Source: Candidatus Obscuribacter phosphatis
GTDB lineage: Bacteria; Cyanobacteriota; Vampirovibrionia; Obscuribacterales; Obscuribacteraceae
Reading direction: 5' to 3'
Assembly: GCA_001899315.1 (NCBI GenBank)
Contig: MOYA01000001.1
Coordinates: forward strand, 310,001-374,000
DNA length: 64,000 nt
Part shown: positions 47,653 through 57,794 of the stretch, piece after piece
Numbering within the stretch: position 1 is the first letter of the stretch
Layout: every line of letters begins with the position of its first letter
The notes under the pieces: model-generated
The model's input: the letters and a program-made list of their open reading frames with translations, nothing else
Told to the model about the DNA's origin: nothing
The model's database searches: none
Program-made: the position numbers and the translations under genes

Positions 47653-47785
47653 GCTCTTTTTGACTGAGCTTTGATTGAGCTGTCGTTCAGCTTTGATTTG
47701 GCTTTCACTCGGCTTTGATTCGGCTTTGATTTTGCTTTGATTCAGCTTTGATTTGGCTTTCACTCAGCTTTGGTTCAGCTTTGAC
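47650..47785. repeat. 11-bp minisatellite starting at the Nudix stop codon
   Basis: From 47665 to 47785 there are exactly eleven 11-base units of consensus TCRGCTTTGAT, for example TCGGCTTTGAT at 47709 and 47720 and TTGGCTTTCAC at 47698 and 47753. A diverged unit TGAGCTCTTTT begins at the TGA stop codon of the Nudix gene (47650-47652). The variation between copies suggests an old array. No open frame or hairpin explains it. Confidence 0.9.
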
Positions 47786-48034: not shown

Positions 48035-48109
48035 CCAAAAGTCTCGGCTTGCTGGCTGCTGCTTAATCTGATGCTTGCAGGCTGACTCGGGTGTTCTGAT
48101 GCTTGCAAG

Positions 48110-48252
48110 CTGATTTTTGCAAGCCGATTCTTGCAAGGCGCTTCTGGCGACCTGATTCTAGTAAGCTGCTTCTGGCTAGCTGACTAAAGCTGGTCTGGCT
48201 CTGGAAAATGATTCTGGGAAGTCTGATTCTAGGAACTCTGATTCTAGATAAG
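48110..48252. repeat. 14-15-bp minisatellite between the small basic gene and obgE
   Basis: Ten imperfect units of 14-15 bases follow a CTGATTCTNGNAAG consensus: CTGATTTTTGCAAG (48110), CCGATTCTTGCAAG (48124), CTGATTCTAGTAAG (48152), CTGATTCTAGGAACT (48223), CTGATTCTAGATAAG (48238) and others. They fill most of the gap before the terminator. The sequence is unrelated to the 11-bp array 330 bp upstream. Confidence 0.82.
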
Positions 48253-50298: not shown

Positions 50299-50457
50299 TG
50301 GTTTGCGGTCTTGGTTTGCGGTCTTGGTTTTTTTGTCTTGGTTGGCGGTCTTGATTCGGGCCGATGCTCTCAAGTCCTGGCTTAGGTCTCGAATTGAGAT
50401 TCTGTGCTAAGTCTTGAATTGATATTCTGGATTAAGTCTTGAATTAAGTTTCTGCCT
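50299..50457. repeat. 13-bp and 25-bp tandem repeats downstream of the PC4-like gene
   Basis: Four units of TGGTTTGCGGTCT type (13-14 bp) run from 50299 to 50351; the first two are identical. Further on, a 25-bp unit beginning TAAGTCTTGAATT is repeated at 50408-50432 and 50433-50457, followed by shorter TAAGTTCTC copies. The two sets are unrelated in sequence but share the style of the other spacers. Confidence 0.8.
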
Positions 50458-50787
50458 TAAGTTCTCACGTTAAGTTCTCGCCTGAAGCCTTAAATTCGCG
50501 CTTGTGATGTTTTGATTTTGAGACCGTGCGAGTAGTAGTCAAAGACTGTTCAAATGCTGCCAGCCTCGCTCAGTTTTTGGACTGCCATAATTCGAAGAAG
50601 CTAGTACAATTTGATTGTTATGGACTCTAGCTTCTAGTTTTAGCCTTTAGTTTTTATTTTCTAGTCTTTATTTTCTAGGTTCTATTCTCTAGTTTGGTAA
50701 TTCTAGACTGCAGATTCCAGATTTCAGTCACATCTGGCTTGGGCCGCAGGGTTATTCAAATTGGTTTCATTTGCACACACTTTCAAG
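50458..50787. other. Intergenic region before the M23 peptidase gene
   Basis: No gene, tRNA or clear hairpin is visible. The first part continues short TAAGTTCTC copies. The stretch 50620-50690 is a degenerate T-rich repeat (TTTATTTTCTAG copies). TACAAT at 50605-50610 could be a -10 element, but no good -35 sits at the right distance. Confidence 0.5.
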
Positions 50788-55557: not shown

Positions 55558-56511
55558 ATGGACCTCAAAGAATGGTTTGCCAGCCGCCAGAAGCGCAAAG
55601 AGCTTCAAGAGAATATCAAGCTACCTTTGACAACTGAAGATTACTGTGCGCTATGGACCCAGTGTTTTCAGTGCCGGGAGCTTCTTTATACTAAAGACTT
55701 AAGGGCCAACCTGCAGGTCTGTCCTAAATGTCAATATCATTTCAGAGTGGGCGCCCTTGACCGCATCGATCAGATTGCCGACCCGGGCAGCTTTGTCGAA
55801 CTCGATGCCGAGATGACCTCGGCCGACCCTCTCAATTTCTTCGACACTGAAGCTTATGCCAAGAGGCAGAAGGAAGCCTGTCGCAAATCGGGACTGAAAG
55901 AAGCCGTACTGACAGGCATTTGTGCCATCGATAGTCAGCCTGTTGCTCTCGGAGCTATGGACTTCGGTCACTTTGGCGGCTCGATGGGTTCGGTGGTAGG
56001 CGAGAAAGTTACTAGACTGGCTGAAGAAGCTACCAACAACAAGATTCCTTTGATTGTGGTGTCCAGTTCCGGCGGCGCCAGGATGCAGGAAGGTATTCTC
56101 AGCTTGATGCAGATGGCTAAGACCAGCTCTGCTTTGAAGTCGTATCATGAAGCCGGTGGGCTCTACATATCTATCCTGGCCGAACCAACATTCGGTGGTG
56201 TCACTGCCAGTTTTGCCATGCTCGGCGACTTGGTGATTGCCGAACCGGGCGCCCGCATCGGCTTCGCCGGTAGGCGAGTTATTGAGCAGACCATCAGGCA
56301 GAAACTGCCTGCCGACTTCCAAACAGCTGAGTATCTGCTCAAGCATGGTCAGGTCGACATGGTTGTTGAGCGTGCCCGTCTGAAAGAAGTACTTTCGCGC
56401 TTGGTCTCATTTCACGATGTAAATCAAGCCGGCAAGAATGCAGCCGATGCAAATGGTGCAGGCGAAAACAATAGAAACGGCGCCGTCAAAAGTGAACAGT
56501 TGGCAAAGTGA
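55558..56511 (+). CDS. accD: Acetyl-CoA carboxylase carboxyltransferase beta subunit
   Basis: This 317-residue subunit has the N-terminal zinc ribbon (CFQCRELL and CPKCQYHF, about residues 38-63) and the crotonase-like carboxyltransferase domain with VVSSSGGARMQEG, LAEPTFGGVTASFAMLGD and GARIGFAGRRVIEQT. With AccA it moves carboxyl from biotin to acetyl-CoA, the first step of fatty-acid synthesis. GCAGGAAG precedes the ATG by 7 bases. The last 25 residues are an Asn/Ala-rich tail. The final codons and stop form the first unit of a 16-bp tandem repeat. Confidence 0.97.
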   Translation: MDLKEWFASRQKRKELQENIKLPLTTEDYCALWTQCFQCRELLYTKDLRANLQVCPKCQYHFRVGALDRIDQIADPGSFVELDAEMTSADPLNFFDTEAYAKRQKEACRKSGLKEAVLTGICAIDSQPVALGAMDFGHFGGSMGSVVGEKVTRLAEEATNNKIPLIVVSSSGGARMQEGILSLMQMAKTSSALKSYHEAGGLYISILAEPTFGGVTASFAMLGDLVIAEPGARIGFAGRRVIEQTIRQKLPADFQTAEYLLKHGQVDMVVERARLKEVLSRLVSFHDVNQAGKNAADANGAGENNRNGAVKSEQLAK

Positions 56512-56612
56512 GTAACTGGCAACTTGAATAGCTGGCAAAGTAAACAGCTGGCAAAGTAAATAGCTGGCAAAGTAAACAGCCGGCAAAGTGAGTAACTGGC
56601 AAAGTGAGTGAT
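56501..56612 (+). repeat. 16-bp x 7 tandem repeat seeded by the accD stop codon
   Basis: Seven exact-length 16-base units start at 56501, 56517, 56533, 56549, 56565, 56581 and 56597, for example TGGCAAAGTAAACAGC. The first unit contains the last accD codons (TTG GCA AAG) and its TGA stop. Every unit carries a stop triplet, and since 16 is not a multiple of three the stops rotate through all frames. The array fills the gap to accA, leaving no ordinary ribosome site before the accA ATG. Confidence 0.95.
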
Positions 56613-56617
56613 GAGTG

Positions 56618-57589
56618 ATGGCTAGTACAGAGAAAAAGATTGTTCCCCTAGAGTTTGAGCAACCGCTGGCGGTGCTGGCTCAACAAATCGAAGCACTGGA
56701 GCGCCAGCTCGGTGACAATCCAGATCTAGAGGGCGATATCGACAGACTGCAAGAGCAATACAACTTGCTCAAAAAGTCTCTTTACGTTAACTTGCGTCCT
56801 ATCGATCATTTGGCTATCGCGCGGCACAGTCAGAGACCTTATAGCCGTGATTATTTTTCTCTTTGGGATCCGCAGTTTATGGAACTGCATGGTGATCGTA
56901 AAGGTGCAGACGATGCCGCTATGGTTGGTGGTTTGCTCAACCTGGGTGGTATCAATATGGTGGCGGTCGGCACCCAGAAAGGTCGATCAATTAAAGAGAA
57001 GCAAGCTTGCAACTTTGGTATGCCTCAGCCCGAGGGGTACAGAAAAGCTTTGCGTCTTTTCAAACATGCCGACAAATACGGTCTGCCTATACTTACCTTG
57101 ATAGATACACCTGGTGCCTATCCGGGTCTGTCTGCCGAGGAGCACAATCAAGCGCAAGCCATCGCTGAGAATCTCTTTGAACTTGCTGGTCTGAGGGTGC
57201 CTGTGGTTGCCGTCGTTACCGGCGAGGGTGGCTCCGGCGGCGCCCTTGCTATTGGTGTCGCTAATCGTATCTTGATGCTTGAGCATTCGGTTTATTCGGT
57301 GATTTCGCCCGAAGGCTGTGCCTCAATTCTATGGCGTTCCAACGACAAGGTGCCCGATGCCTGTCAGGCTATGAAAATGACTGCTCGCGAGATTTTGCAA
57401 TTGGGCGTCATCGACGAGGTTATTGATGAGCCCTTGGGCGGTGCCCATCATGACCATCAGTTGGCTGCCAGAAATCTCGGCGAAGCCATAGTCAGACAAA
57501 TGAAGTCTCTGCTGAAGATGAGCAAAGACGAGATTCGCATAGACAGGCAAAGCAAGTTCCGTGCTTTCGGAGCTTTTGCTGAGAACTAG
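56618..57589 (+). CDS. accA: Acetyl-CoA carboxylase carboxyltransferase alpha subunit
   Basis: This 323-residue subunit has the standard length and motifs: LEFEQPLAVLAQQIEALERQ, an N-terminal helix pair, ARHSQRPYSRDYF, FMELHGDRKGADDAAMVGG, GRSIKEKQACNFGMPQPEGY, RKALRL, LTLIDTPGAYPGLSAEEHNQ, GEGGSGGALAIGVANRI and SVISPEGCASILWR. It partners AccD next door. I choose ATG 56618 over GTG 56615. No purine-rich ribosome site precedes it, because the upstream 112 bp are the 16-bp array, so translation may rely on coupling from accD or on an unusual site. Confidence 0.97.
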   Translation: MASTEKKIVPLEFEQPLAVLAQQIEALERQLGDNPDLEGDIDRLQEQYNLLKKSLYVNLRPIDHLAIARHSQRPYSRDYFSLWDPQFMELHGDRKGADDAAMVGGLLNLGGINMVAVGTQKGRSIKEKQACNFGMPQPEGYRKALRLFKHADKYGLPILTLIDTPGAYPGLSAEEHNQAQAIAENLFELAGLRVPVVAVVTGEGGSGGALAIGVANRILMLEHSVYSVISPEGCASILWRSNDKVPDACQAMKMTAREILQLGVIDEVIDEPLGGAHHDHQLAARNLGEAIVRQMKSLLKMSKDEIRIDRQSKFRAFGAFAEN

Positions 57590-57612: not shown

Positions 57613-57794
57613 AAAGCCCAAAGCCAAAAGCCTAAAGCCCAAAGCCTGAAGCCCAAAGCCAAAAGCCTGAAGCCCAAAGCCAAAAGCCCAAAGCCTGAAG
57701 CCCAAAGCCAAAAGCCTAAAGCCCAAAGCCCAAAGCCAAAAGCCTAAAGCCCAAAGCCTAAAGCCCAAAGCCAAAAGCCTAAAGCCCAAAGCCA
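57613..57794. repeat. 26-copy heptanucleotide array between accA and the kinase gene
   Basis: Exactly 26 units of AAAGCC plus C, A or T fill 182 bp with no length change; three units begin with G instead of A. Writing the last base of each unit gives CATCTCATCACTCATCCATCTCATCA, so units 1-10 and 17-26 carry the same order, a 70-bp higher-order repeat. It lies 23 bp after accA and 29 bp before the end of the convergent kinase gene. The minus strand is partly open (LALGFRLWALGF-like peptides), but this is a by-product of the repeat. Confidence 0.97.

Follow-up and report, generated by a model that had tools for sequence, protein, structure and literature searches.

The genes accD and accA of Candidatus Obscuribacter phosphatis are separated by a tandem array of 16-bp units, which begins inside accD and includes its stop codon. 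As judged from sequence comparison, this array is very probably a lineage-specific minisatellite, close to neutral, that would have been produced by replication slippage and have grown from the 3′ end of accD. It is a known kind of slippage repeat, comparable to the tandem repeats of Borg elements, and one of more than 100 arrays sampled in the genome; nothing suggests that it controls accD or accA.

The array and its flanking genes

The window analyzed here is the whole stretch of 64,000 nt, in which both genes lie on the forward strand. accD (55558–56511) encodes the acetyl-CoA carboxylase carboxyltransferase beta subunit of 317 amino acids, in an open reading frame that matches the NCBIfam equivalog TIGR00515 above its cut-off; accA (56618–57589) encodes the alpha subunit, of 323 amino acids counted from the ATG, and matches the equivalogs NF004344 and TIGR00513 above their cut-offs. 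These matches confirm the gene identities proposed in an earlier note on this DNA.

TRF locates the array at 56489–56607 on the same strand, with 7.4 copies of the 16-bp unit (consensus AAAGTGAATAGCTGGC), 80% matches, no indels and a score of 140. When the window was dinucleotide-shuffled 40 times, the best score was 60, so chance is excluded as the origin of the array. The earlier note correctly recognized a 16-bp tandem array, but described it as seven units at 56501–56612, which starts one unit late and ends 5 bases beyond the end of the array. It had also placed the accD stop codon in unit 1, whereas one full unit (AAAGTGAACAGTTGGC, 56489–56504) already precedes the stop inside accD, where it is part of the in-frame C-terminal tail ..KSEQLAK*. 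The final 23 bases of accD, including the stop TGA at 56509–56511, fall within the array, which ends 10 bases short of the accA ATG at 56618. The last partial unit and the residual spacer (AAAGTGAGTGATGAGTG, 56601–56617) contain the Shine–Dalgarno (SD)-like pairing of accA that is described below. Across the family, the tail of AccD past the conserved domain is variable in both sequence and length (12–40 amino acids).

Each unit carries a stop triplet, TGA or TAA, at unit positions 5–7, and several carry a second one (TAA or TAG). The stops step through all three reading frames, as had been noticed earlier; this is a matter of arithmetic, and is automatic for any period that, like 16, is not divisible by 3. 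The copies differ from each other by point changes. Allowing up to two mismatches, the unit has no match outside the array in the 5.49-Mb genome, and a dispersed repeat family or mobile element was rejected on the grounds that there are no copies at other loci.

The same junction in related genomes

The accD–accA junction was taken from 30 genomes of the family, including two congeners of our genome (G000), of which G002 is the nearest and G001 is more distant. Among 39 relatives, the 16-bp unit is found only in G002, at the accD–accA junction, and is absent from the 38 others; the array is restricted to two of the three species of one genus. In G002 (protein identity to our genome 97% for accD and 99% for accA) there are 3.5 copies, with the unit and its phase identical, and the spacer is 64 bp shorter, which is exactly four units. 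G001 (87–89% identity for accD and accA) has no array: its accD end is unexpanded, and the sequence AAAAGCGGTCAGTTGACCAAGTGAGAATATAAGTAATGATGG can be aligned to our array at its first unit and at its last, partial one. This comparison of copy number in related genomes, which the earlier note had proposed, bears out its suggestion that the expansion was seeded by the 3′ end of a gene, as does the uniqueness of the unit within the genome. The copies of the unit lie head to tail and close relatives differ by whole units, both of which are characteristics of slippage. The array was probably gained in the lineage of G000 and G002 rather than lost in G001, as indicated by G001 itself and by the array-free members of the family.

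At the accD end of both our genome and G002 the heptamer AAAGTGA occurs twice, 16 bases apart, an arrangement that would account both for the period of 16 and for the presence of a stop in each unit. We propose that the ancestor of the two species had this direct repeat at the 3′ end of accD (the first copy within Lys-Ser-Glu, the second forming Lys-stop), and that misalignment of the two copies led to a duplication of 16 bases. Because the first stop codon keeps its place, the copies added downstream would not alter AccD, and the length of the array would be free to drift; the observed difference in copy number between G002 and our genome would then be neutral. The stop in each unit would be a legacy of the accD stop.

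Tandem repeats are a known cause of assembly errors, but it is extremely unlikely that our array is a repeat collapsed or inflated by assembly. G002 is a separate genome with the identical unit, in phase, at the same junction; the contig that carries the array is 3.23 Mb long; and the units are distinguished by point changes, which argues that they are not one unit duplicated in error.

The accD stop codon is also covered by an array in another genus. G006 has an 11-bp array (GCAAAGGTCTA, 4.6 copies) with the accD stop within its first unit, and its congener G027 has no array at this position. Because the G006 array is unrelated to ours and G027 has none, arrays arose at least two times, independently, across the accD stop codon.

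Arrays elsewhere in the genome

We carried out a census of arrays in 1.19 Mb of the genome (G000:C1:1–1200000), using a TRF score of at least 60 and gene calls from a home-made hexamer caller, which placed accD and accA correctly. A 13.5-kb CRISPR locus was left out. This locus, which is outside the window (G000:C1:438910–452398, loci L081–L082), is a very long CRISPR array in which a 28-bp repeat, TTTCTGAGCTGCCTGTGCGGCAGTGAAC, occurs every 60 bp over approximately 13.5 kb; we take the repeat to resemble type I-F.

The census yielded equal numbers of noncoding and coding arrays, 103 of each. The period is divisible by 3 in 102 of the 103 coding arrays, compared to 37 of the 103 noncoding ones. 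No unit is shared between the noncoding arrays, there being 103 distinct units in 103 arrays, and most array units in the genome are 12–25 bp long. By score, the accD–accA array is 15th among the noncoding arrays. All 14 of the arrays that are comparable with G002 differ from it in length, and several are missing from G002 altogether.

Other arrays were seen within the window. One at 57613–57794, with units of 7, 14 and 21 bp (AAAGCCCAAAGCCA × 13), starts 23 bases past the accA stop, and the interval it occupies exceeds its counterparts in G002 and G001 by 158 bp and 226 bp, respectively. Clusters of intergenic arrays with unrelated units of 11–25 bp are found at 47659–47784, 48096–48247 and 50299–50695, and the arrays compared among them differ in length from G002.

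Arrays are unevenly placed with respect to genes: 29 of the noncoding arrays lie over stop codons and only 4 over starts (binomial 1e-5). Their density is 1.82 per kb in convergent gaps, 0.86 in codirectional gaps and 0.24 in divergent gaps. Against a null that ignores gap type, the 29 stops covered are in excess (16.0 ± 3.6 expected; 0/2000), whereas a null that keeps gap type predicts 22.9 ± 3.9 (P 0.07). With this second null, the 4 starts covered are too few (14.6 ± 3.4 expected; P 0.001). The deficit at starts, together with stop counts close to the expectation for gap type, indicates that placement is for the most part a matter of arrays keeping away from starts and promoters; in addition, they may slightly favor gene 3′ ends, to a degree that tolerance alone would not explain. 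Arrays would therefore accumulate where inserts are tolerated, which is to say past stops, seldom over starts, and in multiples of 3 within genes.

Translation of accA and possible functions

According to the earlier note, the array had displaced the ribosome site of accA. This does not hold. The 20 nt upstream of the accA ATG pair with the tail of the genome's own 16S rRNA (..GGATCACCTCCTTT) at −8.3 kcal/mol, which is stronger than approximately 83% of the genes in the genome, compared to only −4.0 kcal/mol for accA of the array-free G001; loss of the accA SD was rejected on this evidence. The SD-like match is partly formed by the last partial unit of the array. The use of SD sequences in this genome is weak, with a median of −5.1 kcal/mol compared to −4.1 kcal/mol for random 20-mers. 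The predicted RNA fold of the spacer is not unusual (z −1.06), the coding strand of the spacer has no promoter or terminator, the numbers being as in shuffles, and Rfam gave no match over the whole window.

The earlier note also suggested that array length tunes the ratio of AccA to AccD, which would make the array a regulatory element whose length sets reinitiation at accA after accD. The array does sit between two genes whose products act jointly, and the distance from the accD stop to the accA ATG grows with the number of units, from 14 nt in G001 to 42 nt in G002 and 106 nt in our genome. A longer spacer may have a small effect on reinitiation, and nothing demands selection on it. The 30 genomes of the family, most of which have no repeat, show values of this distance between −1 and 224 nt, with a median of 37, which implies that no spacing is maintained. 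The SD-like match of accA is kept or even improved in our genome, the unit is not common to other genes, and the array is limited to two species; we therefore regard tuning as very unlikely.

Least likely of all is that the array was selected as a multi-frame stop cassette, acting against read-through or frameshifted ribosomes that pass from accD into accA. It is true that each unit has a stop and that all frames are covered, and there is a parallel in the TAACTGA heptamer direct repeats of Beggiatoaceae, Cyanobacteria and Bacteroidetes (MacGregor 2015, PMC4679880). These are intergenic, with stops in three frames; 13 sets overlap the upstream stop codon, few canonical SD sites occur near the repeats, and close strains differ by whole units (PMC4679880). 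The accD–accA array is like them in its intergenic position, its all-frame stops, its overlap with the upstream stop and its whole-unit differences between relatives. However, among those repeats a single 7-mer is common to 169 sets in one genome, and the position of most sets directly upstream of start codons led to the suggestion of a translational role in Beggiatoaceae (PMC4679880), whereas ours is a unique 16-mer at one locus, with no sharing of units among loci. The stops are a free by-product of a unit copied from the accD stop, and unit positions 5 and 7, which belong to the stop triplet, are conserved no more than the other invariant columns. The array is absent from the congener G001 and from most relatives, and approximately 100 other arrays with unrelated units adjoin unrelated genes in the same genome, which speaks against the earlier idea that this one blocks read-through. 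A near-neutral slippage repeat is thus the preferred reading, and a regulatory effect on AccA is unnecessary to explain any of the observations.

Comparison with known repeats and density across the lineage

MIRUs are longer units that are related to each other and form a dispersed family, unlike the arrays of our genome, where each locus has a private unit. Our arrays do resemble bacterial VNTR/MIRU minisatellites (M. tuberculosis MIRU, PMC3635867) in that copy number differs between relatives. Long simple sequence repeats in prokaryotes, as summarized in PMC4679880 from the survey of Mrazek et al. 2007, are likewise made by slippage, with multiples of 3 favored in genes; as cited there, the survey dealt with units of 1–11 bp, rather than the longer units that predominate here.

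The tandem repeats of Borg archaeal elements are recent, arose independently, and are different or absent in close relatives (Schoelmerich et al. 2023, PMC9879509). Units internal to ORFs are multiples of 3 while few intergenic ones are, the copies are perfect, the units have an A bias, the carriers are extrachromosomal, and regulatory RNA roles have been suggested for the intergenic repeats (PMC9879509). The arrays of our genome are similar in being independent of each other, each noncoding array with its own unit, in being absent or different in G001 and G002, and in having multiples of 3 within ORFs but mostly not in noncoding sequence; the likeness also includes flanking partial repeats (PMC9879509). 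They differ in that the copies are approximately 80% alike rather than perfect, that they are on a bacterial chromosome, and that no regulatory RNA role is indicated for the accD–accA array.

Noncoding arrays occur at 8.7 per 100 kb in our genome, 4.5 in G002 (712 kb), 1.7 in G006 (240 kb) and 0.5 in 400 kb of G039, a single-contig relative at the level of class, and there are none in 77 kb of G001; because some arrays may be lost from short-read assemblies, the difference from G002 is uncertain, and the difference from G039 less so. A mutator cause involving mutS1 or recJ was rejected: of the 13 genomes compared, all have mutS1 and 12 have recJ, and both are intact in our genome, so neither explains its richness in arrays. 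No paper on tandem repeats in Obscuribacter was found among the literature searched. We suggest, tentatively and with more doubt than confidence, that the genus might have a heightened, chromosome-wide production of private minisatellites of approximately 12–25 bp, as a bacterial counterpart of the Borg repeats. The preferred seeds would be gene 3′ ends that contain a short direct repeat, so that arrays that swallow stop codons would recur independently, even at one gene.

Significance

The series from no array to 3.5 and then 7.4 units suggests how a housekeeping gene can seed a minisatellite from its stop codon and the codons just before it while the protein is unaltered. It also provides a caution, in that stop-rich intergenic arrays should not be taken for regulatory cassettes. 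The unusual point is the high density of arrays in this genome, which merits a survey of slippage across the lineage.
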